From Aquimarina sp. AU474 (lineage in GTDB: Bacteria; Bacteroidota; Bacteroidia; Flavobacteriales; Flavobacteriaceae), in contig NZ_OMPE01000003.1 of the NCBI RefSeq assembly GCF_900312815.1, positions 124,001 through 188,000 on the forward strand: a DNA stretch of 64,000 bases, read 5' to 3'. The notes under the pieces were generated by a model. The model was not told where the DNA came from, searched no databases, and saw nothing but the letters and a program-made list of their open reading frames with translations. This document shows positions 4,930 to 13,760 of the stretch, in pieces; the stretch's first letter is position 1; each line of letters starts with the position of its first letter. The position numbers and the translations under genes are program-made.

Positions 4930-4950
4930 AATTAATTACATACTGATTTA

Positions 4951-4983
4951 AAAAAAGCCTGAAGTATACTTTCAGGCTTTTTT
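4951..4983 (+). terminator. Terminator of secA
   Basis: AAAAAAGCCTGAA and TTCAGGCTTTTTT form a 13-bp stem around a 7-nt loop. With A and T tracts on both sides it could also stop the converging minus-strand transcript. Confidence 0.88.
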
Positions 4984-5005
4984 ATTTCTGCTTATTTATA
5001 TTTAT

Positions 5006-5614
5006 TTACGTTATTGATTTTTTATACATTGTAAAGAATAAAAAGGGTAGAAAACCAATTGCAAAAATAAAAGCCCCAGTCAACAGTAATATTTCGGCTC
5101 CTGGCCAATGCATAAATTTAAACAATCCAGATAATCCAACAATAATACCCGAGACACATCCTAAAATAATCTTTAATCTCTCGGAAAGTGCTTTTGCGAT
5201 AGCAACCTTATATTTATCAAAAGTTAACATCGGCACAAATACCAGAAGTAATAAAAGAAATCCAATTGTAAAAAACTTATTAGCACCAGGGTACCATAAC
5301 AACTTAAATGTCACCCCTATCGTTAGGGTTAACGCCCCCACAAATCCAATTAAATACATAAACTTTTTCATGATAATTATTCGTTTTGAGTTTAATAAAA
5401 ATAATGTTTTACGTTCTACGTTGATTAAACCATTTGGCGCTAATTCCTGTATAGCATTTTCTAATGATTCATCAAATAACTTTCCTTGATTTAGTTCGCT
5501 CTCTACCACACAACACAAATGATCCAAAATATCATCACGTAGAGATTTTAATTTCAATCCCTGAGTATCTACAAATTCAACAATCCTGCTTTCTTGTTCT
5601 TCGGTTAATTTCAT
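5006..5614 (-). CDS. PadR-linked membrane protein with two FKxxxxPGA hairpins
   Basis: A 202-residue protein. The first ~75 residues are soluble and acidic (helical, with a CC at about 34-35); the rest has four hydrophobic helices. The helices form two similar hairpins: GVTFKLLWYPGANKFFTIG and GLFKFMHWPGAEILLLTG. The repeated F-K-x-x-x-x-P-G-A motif recalls the membrane part of flavobacterial GldL-like proteins, though this is a weak resemblance and not an assignment. The start overlaps the stop of the PadR regulator gene by 4 nt (ATGA), so the two are translationally coupled. In Gram-positive bacteria PadR partners are often membrane proteins that sense or export envelope-active compounds; the function here is unknown. 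Confidence 0.75.
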   Translation of the reverse strand: MKLTEEQESRIVEFVDTQGLKLKSLRDDILDHLCCVVESELNQGKLFDESLENAIQELAPNGLINVERKTLFLLNSKRIIIMKKFMYLIGFVGALTLTIGVTFKLLWYPGANKFFTIGFLLLLLVFVPMLTFDKYKVAIAKALSERLKIILGCVSGIIVGLSGLFKFMHWPGAEILLLTGAFIFAIGFLPFLFFTMYKKSIT

Positions 5615-5949
5615 GATATTCTCAGTTGCGGAAAAATAACTTTGTTTATAGTTTCTATAAAATCTTTTAGCTCTTCAATATTTAACACTTTCTCCTTTTC
5701 TCCCTGAGATGTTAATACGTAATATTTCCTTACCCTTTTACCTATATACTCTTCTTCACAAGTAAGTAAGCCGTCTTTTTTCATTTTTTGAAGGGCGGGA
5801 TACAAGGAGCCATCCTTCAATAAAATTTTCCCATCAGAGCGTTCTTTGACCTGTTGAAAGATCTCATAACCATACATTCTCCCCTTTTCTGCCAATAAAT
5901 TCAAGATAATTACAGACAATGTTCCTTTAAGTAGTTCTTTTGAATACAT
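5611..5949 (-). CDS. PadR family transcriptional regulator
   Basis: A 112-residue winged-helix regulator. The PadR N-terminal signature is clear: KGTLSVIILNLLAEKGRMYG, then YEIFQQVKERSDGKILLKDGSLYPALQKMKKDGLL and the wing EEYIGKRVRKYYVLTSQGEK. It belongs to the short PadR-s2 subfamily, which lacks the long C-terminal dimerisation domain. It is first in a two-gene operon with the membrane protein at 5006-5614, which it probably represses together with itself. Confidence 0.93.
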   Translation of the reverse strand: MYSKELLKGTLSVIILNLLAEKGRMYGYEIFQQVKERSDGKILLKDGSLYPALQKMKKDGLLTCEEEYIGKRVRKYYVLTSQGEKEKVLNIEELKDFIETINKVIFPQLRIS

Positions 5950-6121
5950 AGATCAAATATACATAAAAATACAATACATCATAATACGAGGTATTAAATT
6001 TTCATATATCCCTACATACTGATCAAGGTATTAGACTCATAAAGTATAATCAATAAAAAATATTTACCCTAAAGAAGAAAGACATATACTACACAGCGAT
6101 AGTCTATCATTGAGCTTATAG

Positions 6122-6814
6122 TTACTCTATTTTTAGTAACAAAGATGGATCTGGGCAGTTTCGTAGATAAAACTCTAAATCCTTTTTATTTGACACACCT
6201 GGATAATCTCCAAAATACCCCTGCATATCTAGTATAACTTGAAAATGTAAATGAGGAGCATAATCTCCATTAACAGATGCATCTCCCAAATAAGCTATTA
6301 CATCACCTGCTTTTACGGCTTGACCAATAATCAACTTCTCAATTGACGGTAAGCTCAAATGCCCATATAAAGTAAAAAACTGTATTCCTTTACATTCATG
6401 TTCAAGAATAATAGTTGGCCCATAATCACCAAAATTAGTATTGTTTTTAAAGCTATGTACTTTTCCATCCAATGGTGCTAATATTTCGGTACCAGCATTA
6501 CACCATATGTCTATTCCCAAATGAATATTACGTTCTGTCTCTGGGTTTTCTTGATTAAAATGAGTACTTCTTCGATAAATTCCTCTTACTTCATTATACC
6601 CTCCGTATGCGACCTTAGCTTCATTTATTTTGACATATTCACTAATATAATCCTCAAACTCTACAGAAGAAGAAACATTAACTGAATCCAGCGCTGTATT
6701 AGTTTCGGATAAATCTATGGCGACATAATCTTCTTTCAAGAATATTGCAGAAACAACAGGTGTAAAATTTTGAGATAAACTATGTATAAAATTCGGGAGA
6801 TTATGGGTATTCAT
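6122..6814 (-). CDS. M23 (LytM-like) peptidase family protein without export signal
   Basis: A 230-residue protein with a LytM/M23 metallopeptidase domain at about residues 85-200. The zinc motifs are intact: HLGIDIWC (HxxxD) and HLHFQ (HxH), with LYGHLS between them. M23 enzymes cut peptide cross-links in peptidoglycan, but this protein starts MNTHNLPNFIHSLSQNFTPV with no signal peptide or membrane anchor. The same kind of unexported M23 domain occurs fused between a kinase and a class III aminotransferase in some proteobacterial proteins, suggesting a role in small-molecule metabolism; that is inference. It stands alone, 62 nt after the FMO gene on the same strand. Confidence 0.82.
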   Translation of the reverse strand: MNTHNLPNFIHSLSQNFTPVVSAIFLKEDYVAIDLSETNTALDSVNVSSSVEFEDYISEYVKINEAKVAYGGYNEVRGIYRRSTHFNQENPETERNIHLGIDIWCNAGTEILAPLDGKVHSFKNNTNFGDYGPTIILEHECKGIQFFTLYGHLSLPSIEKLIIGQAVKAGDVIAYLGDASVNGDYAPHLHFQVILDMQGYFGDYPGVSNKKDLEFYLRNCPDPSLLLKIE

Positions 6815-8299: not shown

Positions 8300-8698
8300 T
8301 TAAAGAGAAAAATTTTGGTCAATTCTTCTTTTGAATACCGGTATCTGAATAAGAAATAATATTGCAAGAAATGATATTCCGTATAAAGTAGTTTTATAAA
8401 ACGTAAACCCTGCTAAAGGATTTTTGATATCCATATCAAAATTAAAAAAAGACAAGTCTGTATTATCTAAAATTGATTGATTACCGCTAGGATATAAAAA
8501 CACTCCTATAGTAATACAGGCCATTAGTAAAGCTAATACAAACCATATTTTTTTTGAAATCAATGGCGTATAGACTAAAGGCTTTTCTGGCGTAAGGAGA
8601 TGTATTTCATTCATCACACTCTTCGAAAAACCTGACGAAGGGTTATGTGCACCTGCTTCTTTAACAATACTCGCTATGTCCTTAAATTGCTCTTCCAT
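8300..8698 (-). CDS. Membrane protein paired with an ECF sigma factor (possible anti-sigma)
   Basis: About 132 residues starting MEEQFKDIASIVKEAGAHNP; an upstream ATG at 8725 is equally possible and would add nine residues. The N-terminal ~50 residues are soluble, followed by two membrane helices (ISKKIWFVLALLMACITIGV and YGISFLAILFLIQIPVF) with a short periplasmic loop. It overlaps the 3' end of the sigma factor gene (by 17 or 44 nt), so it is translationally coupled. Its position and topology fit an anti-sigma factor, but it lacks the HxxxCxxC zinc motif, so this is inference. Confidence 0.72.
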   Translation of the reverse strand: MEEQFKDIASIVKEAGAHNPSSGFSKSVMNEIHLLTPEKPLVYTPLISKKIWFVLALLMACITIGVFLYPSGNQSILDNTDLSFFNFDMDIKNPLAGFTFYKTTLYGISFLAILFLIQIPVFKRRIDQNFSL

Positions 8699-9317
8699 TC
8701 TTGCTACTAATTTCTGGCGAAACATAATGCTTTAGTATCGAATATAACTTTTTTCTGCTTCGATACAATTTTATTTTCACATTATCCGCTGTTAAACCTA
8801 CGATCTCTACAATTTCTTTTACACTTTTTTCTTCAAAATAATACAATGTTACAATAGCCACCTCATCCTCAGGAAGTTTCATAATACTTTCTTCTATGAT
8901 TTTCTTTCTCTCTTGCGCCTGCAAATATCCTAAAGCATCGGTAACTGATTCAATATCCCCTTCATTTATGTCTTCTATCAATTCTGAGGTCATCATTCGT
9001 TTAGATGATTTAATAAAATCTAAACTTTTTCTGTATGCAATAGTGTACAACCATGTCGAAAATTTAGCATCTCCTCTATATTTATTTAGCGATGTATACG
9101 CTTTTACAAATGTATCCTGAGCCACTTCTTCTGCCTGCTCTTTATTCTTGATCATTCTATACACTACAGTATACACCAAACCTTGGTGTCGCTCTACAAG
9201 AATCGAAAAAGCATTAACTTCTCCCTCAAGAACTTGATTGATATAATATTGATCTGATTGATGGTTCATTTCTCCATAAGACGATACTTTATAGTTATCG
9301 GTTACATTAACTGACAT
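8682..9317 (-). CDS. ECF RNA polymerase sigma factor
   Basis: A 211-residue sigma-70 family protein. Region 2 includes LVERHQGLVYTVVYRMIKN, then EQAEEVAQDTFVKAYTSLNK and the promoter-melting stretch FSTWLYTIAYRKSLDFI. Region 4 (KLPEDEVAIVTLYYFEEKSV, then EIVEIVGLTADNVKIKLYRSRKKLY) recognises the -35 region. The first ~20 residues are an extra, polar tail. It is the first gene of an operon with the membrane protein 8300-8698, and is divergent from the DUF6249 gene 9418-9768, separated by 100 nt; that gene is a plausible target. Confidence 0.93.
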   Translation of the reverse strand: MSVNVTDNYKVSSYGEMNHQSDQYYINQVLEGEVNAFSILVERHQGLVYTVVYRMIKNKEQAEEVAQDTFVKAYTSLNKYRGDAKFSTWLYTIAYRKSLDFIKSSKRMMTSELIEDINEGDIESVTDALGYLQAQERKKIIEESIMKLPEDEVAIVTLYYFEEKSVKEIVEIVGLTADNVKIKLYRSRKKLYSILKHYVSPEISSKNGRAI

Positions 9318-9417: not shown

Positions 9418-9768
9418 ATGAGTGGACCAGAAGTTCTAATACCACTAATCTTTTTTGGATGTGTTTTCGGAATTGTATATTTATTTGTGACAGCCCGAAA
9501 CAAAGAGAGATTAGCTTTAATCGAAAAAGGAGCAGACGCTTCAATTTTTTATAGTAGTAAGGATAAAAAAATGACTCCTGTATGGAAAGTATTTATTCTA
9601 AACCTATCTTTATTATTAATGGGTATAGGAGTAGGCATCTTTATCGCAGGAATTTTACACCTTTCGATAGGAGTAGATGAGGATATTGCTTATCCCGGTA
9701 CTATTTTCTTAATGGCGGGAGTTGGATTATTCACAGGCTTTAATATGACCAAAAATCTAAACAAATAG
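9418..9768 (+). CDS. DUF6249 domain-containing membrane protein
   Basis: A 116-residue inner-membrane protein with an N-terminal helix (LIPLIFFGCVFGIVYLFVTA), the characteristic NKERLALIEKGAD motif, and two more helices (VFILNLSLLLMGIGVGIFIAG and TIFLMAGVGLFTGFNM). This is the DUF6249 pattern. Such proteins are usually found next to ECF sigma factor genes in Bacteroidota, as here with the divergent sigma gene at 8682-9317. The function is not known. Confidence 0.87.
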   Translation: MSGPEVLIPLIFFGCVFGIVYLFVTARNKERLALIEKGADASIFYSSKDKKMTPVWKVFILNLSLLLMGIGVGIFIAGILHLSIGVDEDIAYPGTIFLMAGVGLFTGFNMTKNLNK

Positions 9769-10180: not shown

Positions 10181-10206
10181 AAAACCTATCCGTAACGGAT
10201 AGGTTT
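10174..10206 (-). terminator. Terminator of the repeat protein gene
   Basis: AAAACCTATCCG, a TAA loop and CGGATAGGTTTT form a perfect 12-bp stem. Read on the minus strand it is followed by a T tract, directly behind the stop at 10235. Confidence 0.88.
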
Positions 10207-10234
10207 TAGAAATATCAATTGTTATAGTTTGTTC

Positions 10235-10873
10235 TTACATATCAGCAACTTGATCGTTGTCTAGAAATTTTTCGATTACAACAGAATTCCCATTGCTATC
10301 TTCTAAAACATAAACCCCAGCAGGTAATTGACTTAGATCTACAAAATTTGTAGTTTTTGTTAAGATATGTACTGTATTCTTTACTTCAAATAATTTTATT
10401 TTATCTCCTTCTTCAAAATCAACAACAGTAACCATATCTCCTTCTCTATTAATCGCTAAAAGGTTTGTTTCTGCATTTTCATAATAATGCATGTACTCTT
10501 GTTCAACATCAATCTCTGCAGGAACCATTGTTCTTTTACTATCTAATTCTACAAGAAAATCATTATGTATTGCGTTAATCGCTCCATCTACATTTAACTC
10601 TTCTTCAAGACGATCGATGATAACAGATCTTCCTTGATTATTTTCAAGTAAATACGATCCTACTGGTAATTGACTAAGGTCTATTTCACCATGTGTCTTA
10701 GATAAGATATGATCTCCAGTTTCTACTTCAAATAATTTTATCTTATCTCCTTCTTCAAAGTCAAGCACTACAACAACAAGACCATCCTTCTCTACTTTTA
10801 GAGTTTCATCTTTGTCACTTGCGTAACTGTTAAGAAATAAAAATAAGCTAAAAAAATATGCGATCAATTTCAT
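10235..10873 (-). CDS. Secreted protein of two tandem sorting-domain-like repeats
   Basis: A 212-residue protein with a Sec signal peptide (MKLIAYFFSLFLFLNSYASD). The mature part consists of two copies of a ~60-residue beta-rich unit, residues 31-92 and 146-205, joined by an acidic linker. Each unit runs DFEEGDKIKLFEV, then DLSQLPxGxYxLE and a Gly-Ser-Val-(I/V)-I-(D/E)-(R/K) ending. This order (strand, LSxLPxGxY, Gly, Lys-like end) resembles the C-terminal type A sorting domain of type IX secretion cargo. Here there is no cargo domain in front, so the units may act as a structural envelope module. The assignment to the sorting-domain fold is inference; the duplication is directly visible. Confidence 0.8.
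   Translation of the reverse strand: MKLIAYFFSLFLFLNSYASDKDETLKVEKDGLVVVVLDFEEGDKIKLFEVETGDHILSKTHGEIDLSQLPVGSYLLENNQGRSVIIDRLEEELNVDGAINAIHNDFLVELDSKRTMVPAEIDVEQEYMHYYENAETNLLAINREGDMVTVVDFEEGDKIKLFEVKNTVHILTKTTNFVDLSQLPAGVYVLEDSNGNSVVIEKFLDNDQVADM
10259..10438 (-). repeat. Second internal repeat of the secreted repeat protein
   Basis: Codes for residues 146-205 and aligns with residues 31-92 at an offset of 115 residues. The DNA around 10386-10425 is almost identical to that around 10730-10770, so the duplication is recent or under strong constraint. Confidence 0.8.
10598..10783 (-). repeat. First internal repeat of the secreted repeat protein
   Basis: Codes for residues 31-92. It shares DFEEGDKIKLFEV and DLSQLPxGxYxLE with the second copy. 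The divergence lies mainly in the loops. Confidence 0.8.
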
Positions 10874-11191
10874 CTTTCTATGTTTTTACTGTAATGGATT
10901 TGTTATTTCCTTCTTACGGTTTAACCATACAATGATATTACTATAATATTGTTAAACAAACTAAAAAACAGACTTTTAGATCAAATGTTTTTGATTTTCG
11001 ATAAAAGACACAAAAAATGTTAAAATTGAACAAAATATAACTTAACCATTTGATTATTAGTATTTTAAATTGTGTCATGTGTTAAAAACATAGATAAAAG
11101 GCCCAATAGGACAGACAAAAGACCACTTCAAACGGTAATTCCTATGATTTATTATACTAAAAATCAAAAAAATATCAGCGCACAAAACACT
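10874..11191. other. Gene-free upstream region of the repeat protein gene
   Basis: About 320 nt of very AT-rich DNA. No coding frame, tRNA or strong hairpin is visible. It must hold the promoter of the minus-strand gene at 10235-10873, but no clear TAnnTTTG box in the right orientation was found close to the start. Confidence 0.5.
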
Positions 11192-11229
11192 AAAAAAGCC
11201 CCATTGACGGAATCAATGAAGCTTTTTTA
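11192..11229 (-). terminator. Terminator of the second ECF sigma operon
   Basis: AAAAAAGC-CC-CATTGA pairs with TCAATG-AA-GCTTTTTT, an interrupted stem with a T tract on the minus strand behind the stop at 11263. Confidence 0.75.
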
Positions 11230-11262: not shown

Positions 11263-12642
11263 TTATTTATTATTTAACAGAATCTTACTATACTTAGCAT
11301 TGATTGTGATCATATTATTTGTACTACGGGTGTTTTGAAATCCATTGATAAAAACGTTACCAAAATTCTTTCTTGTATTTATTTCTAAAGTTTTAGGTAA
11401 AGAAATTATACTTTGAGCGCCGCTGTAAGATAAATTAAAGGATGTATCTGGTAATTTTAATTTAAAATCACTATTCTGAACTGCCAAATCAAGTGTCGAA
11501 AATGATTTTCCTAAAGTTGCAATTGTAATCATTCCAAAACTCGCAGAAATAGCTCCATTCTCATCTAACTCTTGGATAAAAATATTACTCGAATCTGCAT
11601 TTACCAAAAGGTTTTTTGCGTTTTGAATCCTACAGTTCTTAACATAGTTTACAACAAGTCTTCCATTATTCCATTCACGCACAAATACAGGCGAGTATGA
11701 TGCTTTGATAAAAGTTTGATTACCTTCTATCACATTGGCAGAAAGTTTTGTGTGCGATAATGAAGCTCTAACATTTTTGGCTTTCTCTGCCAATTGTACT
11801 GCACCATGACGGACATTAAGCTTCAGTTTAGCATCTTTAGGTATTTTTACCTTGATTACTTTACTTGTATTGGTATTTGATCTTTCGGCACTATACTGAT
11901 AGATCGTAACATTAGCCGTTCCTTTTTGCTGTTTTTCGATATCTTTGACCAGTTGAGATGCCCAGGCTTCCATTTGTTTACCATATTGCTCTCCCCATTC
12001 TAATCGAATCTCCATTTGGCCAGATATGTTTTTTGAATTTGCTTCAAGTTGTTTGGCCCACTTTTGTTTTTCTTGATTTATTTCATCACTAAACTTCTCT
12101 CGTATCTGATTATCCCATTGCTGAATATATTTTTCTTCCTCTTCACTATAGTTTTTATTTTTAAGATTAACATTAGCAAGATTGTCCGAAAGTGCATTGG
12201 GCATAGGATTATTATCAATATTCTTAATAAGAGGCCCCAACATATCCGCTATTGCCGGATTTAACATTCTAAGTTGTTCTTTACTCACGTTAAAATTAGA
12301 GGCGGTTACTTTACCTGTCCATAAATTTCCTGCCGCAGAATTAATAGTTACATTTTCATCATCACCAAGCACATCTAATTGCCAACTATCGAGTATACGC
12401 TTATTATTTCCATCAATAAGATTATTGCCTTCTATGTATGCTTCTACTGATACTTCATTTCTATTCCATGTCTCAAAAACTATATTAGTATGGCTAGTAT
12501 TAAGATTAATAGTAACATCAGAATTAACAGAAAGCTTTTCCTTAAGCTTACTTTCGCGATCTTGCGCTAATACCCCAACGCTATAAAACCCGAGAACATA
12601 AAATGTAATAATATTAAGCTTGTATCTCATCATAACCTTCAT
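11263..12642 (-). CDS. Secreted DUF4097-like (adhesin/head-kinase-type) protein of an ECF operon
   Basis: About 459 residues with a signal peptide ending in VGVLAQD. The start is unclear: ATGs at 12642, 12633 and 12630 are all possible, and the upstream frame begins with TTG. The mature protein begins with beta-strand repeats (VTINLNTSHTNIVFETWNRN), has a long charged helical middle rich in Gln, Glu and Trp (about 165-235), and returns to beta-helix-like repeats (VKIPKDAKLKLNVRHGAVQL and onwards). Such DUF4097-like proteins are often third in sigma/anti-sigma operons of Bacteroidota. It overlaps the preceding gene by up to 29 nt. The role is unknown; the sequence suggests an envelope-facing beta-solenoid. 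Confidence 0.75.
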   Translation of the reverse strand: MKVMMRYKLNIITFYVLGFYSVGVLAQDRESKLKEKLSVNSDVTINLNTSHTNIVFETWNRNEVSVEAYIEGNNLIDGNNKRILDSWQLDVLGDDENVTINSAAGNLWTGKVTASNFNVSKEQLRMLNPAIADMLGPLIKNIDNNPMPNALSDNLANVNLKNKNYSEEEEKYIQQWDNQIREKFSDEINQEKQKWAKQLEANSKNISGQMEIRLEWGEQYGKQMEAWASQLVKDIEKQQKGTANVTIYQYSAERSNTNTSKVIKVKIPKDAKLKLNVRHGAVQLAEKAKNVRASLSHTKLSANVIEGNQTFIKASYSPVFVREWNNGRLVVNYVKNCRIQNAKNLLVNADSSNIFIQELDENGAISASFGMITIATLGKSFSTLDLAVQNSDFKLKLPDTSFNLSYSGAQSIISLPKTLEINTRKNFGNVFINGFQNTRSTNNMITINAKYSKILLNNK

Positions 12643-13231
12643 TCTCAATTTTTTCTAATTCTTTAAGTTTATCTTTTAATCTTTCTAATAAAGACAACCT
12701 TAACTTTAAATTTTCCATCATAGCTTCTATGCTTTCCATGTTTGGACCAACTTCAATAAGTTCTTTACTAAGGTTTTGATATTCTCTATCAAGATTGTTT
12801 AACCGTAATTTAAAACTATCTACTAACTCTCTATTTTTGTCATCGACAGTAATTTCTGACAACTGAAACTTGATACTAGTCAATAAATAATTTTCAACTT
12901 TTTCATACTCTGGAGACATTTCTGCCAGAGACGAAGACTGTTTAGACAAGACTATTGTAGAATTTTTAGCATCTGTACCATCAGTAGTTACCACTTCATT
13001 ATCATTAGAGACGTTTCCTTGAAATTGATTATACGCTGTTAAGGAGATTGAAAATACTATAGCAACACTTGCAGCAATTTTCAACCAACCATATGTAAAT
13101 TTCCTGACCTTAGTCTTTTCTGGAAGTTCTTTTTCTAACTTGGCCATAAAACGCAACTGATGTCCTTCATTTATACGTTCAGAAGGGAGTTGCTTATCCT
13201 GTTTTAATAGCTCTCTAATATCTTGTGCCAT
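12614..13231 (-). CDS. Anti-sigma-like membrane protein
   Basis: A 205-residue protein with a soluble N-terminus (MAQDIRELLKQDKQLPSERI), which should bind the sigma factor, one membrane helix at about residues 49-66 (LKIAASVAIVFSISLTAY), and a periplasmic domain ending in a coiled coil of about 75 residues (from LREYQNLS-like heptads to KDKLKELEKIENEG). It overlaps the sigma gene by 17 nt and the next gene by 3-29 nt. The position and topology are those of an anti-sigma factor; no zinc motif is present, so the role is inferred. Confidence 0.75.
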   Translation of the reverse strand: MAQDIRELLKQDKQLPSERINEGHQLRFMAKLEKELPEKTKVRKFTYGWLKIAASVAIVFSISLTAYNQFQGNVSNDNEVVTTDGTDAKNSTIVLSKQSSSLAEMSPEYEKVENYLLTSIKFQLSEITVDDKNRELVDSFKLRLNNLDREYQNLSKELIEVGPNMESIEAMMENLKLRLSLLERLKDKLKELEKIENEGYDEIQA

Positions 13232-13760
13232 CTCTCAAATGTTTTAATTGGTCCTGAAGCTGTTTTTTACCTCGATGAACAAGGGTTCTCGAAGCCACCG
13301 ATGTTATATCTAATATTTCACTAATTTCGTTATGATCATACCCTTCAATCAAAAATAGCATTACTGCATATTTATACTTTTCGGGTAATCTCTCTATTGC
13401 TTTTTTTACTTCTTCAACTGTCACAGAATCTGATACAGACCAATCATTTTGTTCTTCGACTGTAGTCATCACCTGTTCATTAATCGCTACCATATTCATC
13501 TTCTTGGCCTTTAGCATATCTATGCTTTTATTAATTACTATTCGTTTAAGCCAAGCACCAAAAGTCACATCACCTGTAAACTGGTGAAGTCTTGTAAAGG
13601 CCTTAATGAAAGATTCTTGCATAGCTTCCTCTGCCTCAAATGGATCTTTGAGGAATCTTAAAGCTACATAATACATACCATCACAGTATTTATTATAAAG
13701 CTTCATCTGTGCTCTACGGTCATTATCCCTACACTGTTCTATTAGCTCGCTTTGTAACAA
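13215..13760 (-). CDS. ECF RNA polymerase sigma factor (second module)
   Basis: A 181-residue sigma-70 family protein. Region 2 carries LYNKYCDGMYYVALRFLKDP, FEAEEAMQESFIKAFTRLHQ and FGAWLKRIVINKSIDML; region 4 carries RLPEKYKYAVMLFLIEGYDH followed by NEISEILDITSVASRTLVHRGKKQL. The frame has no ATG before residue 19, so the start is the TTG at 13760, which gives the normal family N-terminus. A promoter-like TAATTTTG lies about 90 nt upstream. It heads the operon with the anti-sigma-like and DUF4097-like genes. Confidence 0.92.
   Translation of the reverse strand: MLQSELIEQCRDNDRRAQMKLYNKYCDGMYYVALRFLKDPFEAEEAMQESFIKAFTRLHQFTGDVTFGAWLKRIVINKSIDMLKAKKMNMVAINEQVMTTVEEQNDWSVSDSVTVEEVKKAIERLPEKYKYAVMLFLIEGYDHNEISEILDITSVASRTLVHRGKKQLQDQLKHLRDGTRY

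Follow-up and report, generated by a model that had tools for sequence, protein, structure and literature searches.

Can the C-terminal sorting domain (CTD) fold of the type IX secretion system (T9SS) serve a cell when it has no cargo to sort? The question is raised by one open reading frame in the window, by which we mean the whole 64,000-nucleotide stretch of Aquimarina sp. AU474 DNA that was analyzed. The first-pass annotation had described this frame as a secreted protein built from two sorting-domain-like repeats and nothing else. The description holds: the 212 aa are made up of a signal peptide, two units of ~66 aa, an acidic linker, and a tail, and the CTD-like unit is present in two copies with no passenger domain in the frame. 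The parts are laid out as follows.

10235..10873, reverse strand: whole open reading frame of the two-unit protein, 212 aa
10820..10873, reverse strand: Sec-type signal peptide, residues 1–18, judged by eye without a predictor
10604..10801, reverse strand: unit 1, residues 25–90, modelled as a seven-strand sandwich with pLDDT about 90 over most of its length
10460..10603, reverse strand: acidic linker of low model confidence, residues 91–138, with one short predicted helix
10262..10459, reverse strand: unit 2, residues 139–204
10238..10261, reverse strand: acidic eight-residue C-terminal tail, residues 205–212, ending in VADM
10695..10764, reverse strand: DNA repeat copy in unit 1, 83% identical to the unit 2 copy
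10353..10422, reverse strand: DNA repeat copy in unit 2

Residue A18 is nearly invariant among the aligned relatives, no cysteine lies near it, and, judged by eye, the signal peptide is without a lipobox cysteine. The mature protein is acidic, with a pI of 4.25 (range 4.1–4.5 in the 61 distinct two-unit proteins collected), and tails ending like VADM, VAYN, or TDL are frequent in relatives. The two units are indeed repeats, being 54.5% identical over 66 aligned residues, whereas 5000 shuffles gave a mean of 8% and a maximum of 21%. Near-identical DNA had also been claimed, and this stands for parts of the 70-nt repeat (83% identical overall) but not for the whole units, which share 63% DNA identity.

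Likeness to the type A sorting domain was borne out in part. The protein scored 30 bits against PF18962 (Por_Secre_tail; cut-off 27) but 22.5 against TIGR04183, just below the cut-off of 23, and the match falls mainly in the C-terminal half of the profile. Each half of the protein alone scores weaker (19.4 and 13.8 bits, Pfam), and the better match is the one that contains unit 2. The strain itself is a T9SS user, with SprA at 2796 bits and 63 TIGR04183 matches; our set of its own CTDs numbers 29 (30 of the 63 loci were fetched, and L030 was dropped for a frame problem). When 126 units were compared with these 29 CTDs by profile, the score was 26.4 (P 5e-5), against 18.4 for the best of 40 column shuffles and 14.1 for the reversed control. 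The same kind of comparison between 51 units and 10 own CTDs was not significant (P 0.018). Searching with the 29-CTD profile recovered the window protein (E 7e-6) among the few open reading frames of 33 loci, along with only two of four positive-control loci. In PDB sequence searches, the own-CTD profile led to CTD structures, and the two-unit profile gave three rows, all at E 0.1 or worse. Among the Pfam matches of the window protein up to E 1, DUF3244 (PF11589) was absent.

For the fold prediction, the unit was folded alone because Foldseek, given the whole two-unit model, returned mostly tandem FN3/Ig proteins. Unit 1, modelled in this way with 51 aligned units, has seven strands and a mean pLDDT of 84.2; the two-unit model averaged 65, close to 80 in the units and below 50 in most of the linker. 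In the VIA comparison, the best match of the unit model was a DUF3244 structure, 3sd2 (Z 8.8, rmsd 2.0, 69 aligned), and two more DUF3244 structures scored Z 7.5 (3d33) and 6.9 (4g5a). Among sorting domains, the NucA CTD (8glk) reached Z 7.3 (rmsd 2.0, 64 aligned), the mirolase CTD (8qb1) 7.1, the RgpB CTD 6.8, PorZ (5m11) 6.7, RemZ 6.4, and RemA 6.1. An FN3 protein scored Z 7.0; rows within 1 Z count as tied, and fold alone cannot separate CTD from FN3, while 3sd2 stands 1.8 Z above the FN3 row. The two-unit model had the same leaders (3sd2 8.0, 3d33 7.8, NucA 7.5), and the first five Foldseek rows for the unit model were DUF3244 structures and the NucA CTD, at E 0.008 to 0.03. The sorting-domain sandwich proposed at first pass is predicted in the form of a seven-strand sandwich with CTDs among its best matches, but DUF3244 fits at least as well. 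Neither an outright different fold nor an outright lack of TIGR04183 similarity was found. A fold relation to the type A CTD and DUF3244 is supported by the predicted models.

It could still be argued that the units are mere Ig/FN3-like sandwiches whose DLSxLPxGxY strand arose by convergence, with no evolutionary tie to sorting domains. That every VIA match but one has Z < 8, that FN3 domains and CTDs differ by no more than 1 Z, and that tandem FN3/Ig pairs dominate the whole-protein Foldseek list would all fit such an origin, as would the P of 0.018 with the 10-sequence CTD profile and the two positive-control loci of four that the 29-CTD profile found. However, the PF18962 score exceeds a curated cut-off, a search with the own-CTD profile picks out the window protein (E 7e-6), and DUF3244 or CTD structures fill four of the five best VIA rows and all five leading Foldseek rows for the unit model. 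We consider convergence very unlikely.

If the units are related to sorting domains, the features of a sorting signal that they keep and lose become important. The PNP motif, present in 29/29 of the strain's own CTDs, was found in 0/61 two-unit proteins, 0/10 one-unit proteins, and 0/126 cut units. The motif-D glycine is likewise universal in the own CTDs (29/29); at the equivalent place, assigned by eye, glycine stands in 60/61 units 1 and 7/10 one-unit proteins, and in 0/61 units 2. A basic residue sixteen positions after the GxY motif (GxY+16), the counterpart of the CTD lysine that touches PorV in published structures, shows the opposite behavior. It occurs in 60/61 units 1 (49 Arg, 11 Lys) and 60/61 units 2 (Lys), or 120/122 together, in 8/10 one-unit proteins, and in 19/29 own CTDs, where position −5 is Lys in 18/29 and Arg in 4. 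This lysine position is followed by 7–14 residues in unit 2, mostly including acidic ones, against 4–6 residues in 25/29 own CTDs. According to the report on translocon structures (PMC10994853), Lys 1110 of RemZ (1114 residues, hence five from the end) is the sole conserved residue contacting PorV, and the other CTD motifs specify the fold. The two-unit protein thus keeps one T9SS-relevant residue without the others.

These features bear on the possibility that the protein is a very short T9SS cargo, with unit 1 as the passenger and unit 2 as a divergent sorting domain that delivers it to the surface or medium. Unit 2 does lie C-terminal and in the half that better matches the profile, and short proteins with a CTD exist. 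For example, PMC7712824 describes Fjoh_0547, a 112-aa CTD protein that still appears in the culture supernatant when SprA or PorV is missing, and the AU474 genome itself encodes a 115-aa protein that consists of a signal peptide and a canonical type A CTD with PNP and nothing else (L095:868-1215, on contig C7 at about 1.211 Mb). However, the two units are conserved to about the same degree (73.1% DNA identity between units 1, 73.6% between units 2), and PNP is absent from unit 2, after which comes a mostly acidic tail. A review states that efficient secretion needs the last 13 residues of the CTD and the motif-E lysines (PMC10202324). We regard a short cargo as unlikely.

The gene has a restricted distribution. 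Matches to the window protein were present in 54 of 66 Aquimarina genomes; by a hand count of the listing, 49 of the 66 had a two-unit match, and one-unit rows (~100 aa) appeared in 14. A family-wide search gave matches in 12/397 genomes, three of them Aquimarina, and the nine others were weak and partial (E 8e-5 to 7e-4). The two-unit gene was therefore detected in Aquimarina alone, at the sensitivity of this search. Two-unit homologues, the kind of relative that the first-pass annotation suggested looking for, are thus common in the genus, and a remote second family, described below, extends to 114/249 Flavobacteriaceae genomes. Within the AU474 genome (4.84 Mb), a simple sequence search for paralogues found the gene itself and two chance-level rows only, and a search with the two-unit profile found one CTD at E 0.007. 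In several genomes, e.g., at L109, a second two-unit copy sits between an M23 peptidase gene and secA; the window has no such copy between these genes (4930-6122). The one-unit relatives, each with a signal peptide, are those of L104, L105, L099–L103, L106, L107, and L087, and in L099–L103 and L087 the one-unit gene directly precedes the two-unit gene. This set of 10 comprises 9 of the 14 rows plus L087, which is possibly one of the other five; the L115 protein (113 aa, E 3e-4) was excluded as too distant.

The surroundings of the gene are more widely shared than the gene itself. The elements next to it in the window are these.

10181..10207, reverse strand: intrinsic-terminator-like hairpin and T run, after the two-unit gene
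11191..11229, reverse strand: intrinsic-terminator-like hairpin separating the two-unit gene from the upstream ECF operon
11263..13760, reverse strand: upstream genes for an ECF sigma factor, a probable anti-sigma factor, and a DUF4097-like protein
9418..9768, forward strand: DUF6249 gene, the neighbor on the other side

The ECF sigma factor has Pfam hits; the anti-sigma and DUF4097-like names are assigned by inference, with no Pfam hit over cut-off. Two pairs of ECF sigma and probable anti-sigma genes flank the two-unit gene (8300-9317 and 11263-13760), and this block is partly conserved in other Flavobacteriaceae genera. Two terminator-like hairpins were found around the gene, where shuffled sequence led us to expect 0.3, and with one on either side, the gene is probably transcribed on its own. 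A shared operon with the ECF sigma factor is unlikely, given the hairpin at 11191-11229. The Bacteroidota-type −7 promoter motif is TAnnTTTG; it was absent from the 389 nt upstream of the gene in the window and from the 250 nt upstream in eight relatives. A plasmid or mobile origin was considered and rejected, with no plasmid match and no PHROG. Elsewhere in the window, a 202-aa membrane protein encoded after a PadR gene (5006-5614 for the membrane protein) comes just short of the cut-off for the GldL N-terminal domain, at 23.7 bits against 24.

Our synteny sample comprised 40 Aquimarina loci, equal to 35 distinct places. At 30 of these places, the ECF operon's DUF4097-like gene is found upstream in the same orientation, a count that includes two places where the available stretch begins inside the DUF4097-like gene (L087 and L111, the latter with intervening genes). 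As for the remaining five, the stretches of L089 and L091 begin past the DUF4097 site, L106 and L107 lie elsewhere, and L115 has no match. A one-unit gene occupies the same syntenic place as the two-unit gene in L104 and L105. Outside Aquimarina, a DUF4097-like gene was found in 77/120 genomes (the AU474 genome counted), and ECF sigma and anti-sigma genes were present in 29/29 other-genus loci examined. DUF6249 was kept in 8 of these 29, an M23 neighbor in 8, and neither in 13. No relative of the two-unit gene was found in the 29 loci with flanks of about 1.5 kb, a test in which the unit profile recovered 4/4 positive-control loci; the only hit was a large CTD-bearing open reading frame in L127, with the CTD profile. 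Since the ECF block exists without the two-unit gene in other genera, the gene is most simply explained as an Aquimarina insertion into an old block.

The genomic context, together with the retained basic residue, could point to a protein that acts on the T9SS as a decoy or feedback factor. The residue at GxY+16 is basic in nearly every unit, the genome has SprA and 63 TIGR04183 matches, the DUF4097-like gene of an ECF operon stands upstream in most places examined in the genus, and PorA offers a precedent (PMC7712824). Against this, PNP is missing, the motif-D place of unit 2 is not glycine, and no free C-terminus lies close to the lysine; the translocon-structure study itself suggests that the PorV-contacting lysine may act mainly elsewhere in transport (PMC10994853). 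The ECF operon is without a two-unit gene in all 29 other-genus loci examined, and a terminator-like hairpin lies between the two in the window. We judge a decoy or feedback role to be somewhat unlikely.

The history of the units gives a sense of how long they have been a pair. Averaged over 61 proteins, DNA identity between unit 1 and unit 2 within genes is 64.4%, against 63.9% between species, and this near equality gave no hint that gene conversion has acted on them. In a tree of 126 units (from which 3 of the 61 two-unit proteins had been dropped, and in which the few columns make all support values rough), units 2 fall on one side of a branch (94/86), and the one-unit proteins fall on one side of another (96/87) that adjoins units 1. 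Units 1 need two changes, and a long-branch row from L108 lies outside. Based on the unit tree and the similarity of within-gene and between-species identity, the duplication is probably older than the diversification of Aquimarina. Both units are conserved to about the same degree.

A single copy closing a large protein, which the first-pass annotation took as the norm for a sorting domain, is not the rule throughout the family: many of its genomes encode one- or two-unit forms without cargo. A search with DUF3244 brought up small proteins from other genera, some of them canonical, with PNP, and others lacking it. The DUF3244 model matched in 47/60 genomes, 20 of them over cut-off and mostly at large proteins, so that stand-alone domains and CTDs are not cleanly told apart by it. 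A 189-aa two-unit protein from L159, used as a query, had matches in 114/249 Flavobacteriaceae genomes and 107/235 genera; by hand count, matches over both units in frames of 186–267 aa occurred in 103/249 genomes, many at 18–30% identity. The AU474 genome carries a member of this wide family, a 195-aa protein at C4:709128-709688 (L192), which was reached only via its L159 relative and exceeds both cut-offs (PF18962 33 bits, TIGR04183 26.7 bits). The DUF3244 cut-off was passed by the L159 protein, a member from L194, and a one-unit protein from L154, so that two of the four wide two-unit members tested are DUF3244 proteins by the Pfam cut-off. No family-specific name was found in Pfam or NCBIfam for the four wide-family members scanned. 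Several genomes have neighboring copies, with up to seven matches per genome.

The wide family has its own genetic neighborhood and signature. An AraC-type regulator (Pfam HTH_18) related to that of L192 lies beside or near the two-unit gene at 29/38 loci from 38 genomes. In the AU474 genome, an AraC/cupin-type regulator is divergent from the two-unit gene (L192:6114-7821, on C4 at about 709 kb); in the window, tblastn gave no match to this regulator at E up to 0.01. PNP was found in 0/62 wide-family members collected. Proline is usual at GxY+16 (48/62), and at this position the window protein is more CTD-like than the wider stand-alone family. A glycine before strand 3, considered as a possible mark of stand-alone forms, occurs in 46/62 wide-family members versus 7/29 own CTDs by one pattern, but that pattern was chosen after looking and carries no weight in our conclusions. 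The two families are remotely similar by profile (P 4.5e-6 with the signal-peptide region, 1.3e-4 with the units only), and hmmsearch with the wide family found the window protein at E 3.8e-5 in a small set of open reading frames. Tandem, cargo-less proteins of the CTD fold are frequent in Flavobacteriaceae, and the Aquimarina form is one distinct branch. The protein studied here is a genus-specific variant of a widespread kind; in the literature searched, with most subscription papers outside it, we found neither a functional study nor any publication on two-unit cargo-less CTD proteins.

With these elements in place, we favor the reading, at a probability of roughly one in two, that the two-unit protein is a Sec-exported envelope binding module on a CTD/DUF3244 fold, and not cargo or an ordinary sorting signal. 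Its export, location, binding, and partner are what we infer here. The signal peptide would direct it through Sec, giving a soluble, acidic protein of the envelope. The units may have lost, or never had, a role in sorting cargo and would serve as a putative binding module themselves. With both units equally conserved and joined by a flexible acidic linker, binding may well be bivalent, to a single kind of partner either in the periplasm or on the surface of the cell. A likely contact face would be formed by the F..GD..KLF hairpin and the DLSQLP.G.Y strand, which recur in the two units and in most of the one-unit relatives. Three observations suggest independence from sorting: motifs are missing, one- and two-unit forms share a locus, and DUF3244 occurs in a genome with no SprA match. 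That genome is Bacteroides ihuae, one of 14 control genomes, where DUF3244 was over cut-off; SprA had no match in any of the 14, B. ihuae included. This case suggests that the CTD/DUF3244 fold may be usable without a T9SS, although the separation is not clean, as TIGR04183 also matched in that control search and the DUF3244 model, like CTDs, matches many large proteins. The basic residue kept at GxY+16 counts against a non-sorting module, being what would be expected of a T9SS-binding protein.

More broadly, and tentatively, Flavobacteriaceae may have a second use of the CTD fold: a large, unnamed class of cargo-less one- and two-domain envelope proteins for sensing or binding, with their own regulators, of which the lineage-specific, ECF-linked Aquimarina branch keeps the PorV-facing basic residue. 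If so, sensing or binding would be the task of a system distinct from protein sorting, with AraC-type regulators in the wide family. This matters for annotation in a family whose genomes can hold dozens of sorting domains, where profile hits such as the 63 TIGR04183 matches here are read as secreted cargo; some of these calls may be wrong. A single genome that holds canonical CTDs, a protein of signal peptide plus CTD, and two kinds of two-unit protein also provides a natural test of the signal residues. Binding to PorV or SprA would make the units natural competitors; in its absence, they would reveal a use of the fold without the T9SS.

The closest known systems include PorA (PGN_0123), which has a FimH-like domain and one CTD, and Fjoh_0547; both are small CTD-bearing proteins that, as reported in PMC7712824, reach the surface or medium without the T9SS translocon. 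DUF3244, known from Bacteroides structures (PF11589; 3sd2, 3d33, 4g5a), is a sandwich domain and the best structural match of the unit model, but Pfam does not place the window protein under it. The type A CTD (PF18962/TIGR04183) shares the profile match, the predicted fold, the GxY strand, and the basic GxY+16 residue; it differs from the window protein, which has no PNP, two copies, no cargo, an extra and mostly acidic tail, and, in unit 2, no motif-D glycine. The wide family of the L159/L192 type, at about 200 aa, has the same architecture of a signal peptide and two CTD-like units without cargo. Unlike the window protein, however, its members have a median pI of 6.6 (compared with 4.1–4.5), usually carry proline at GxY+16, have an AraC-type neighbor, and usually end at the C-terminus with their second unit.
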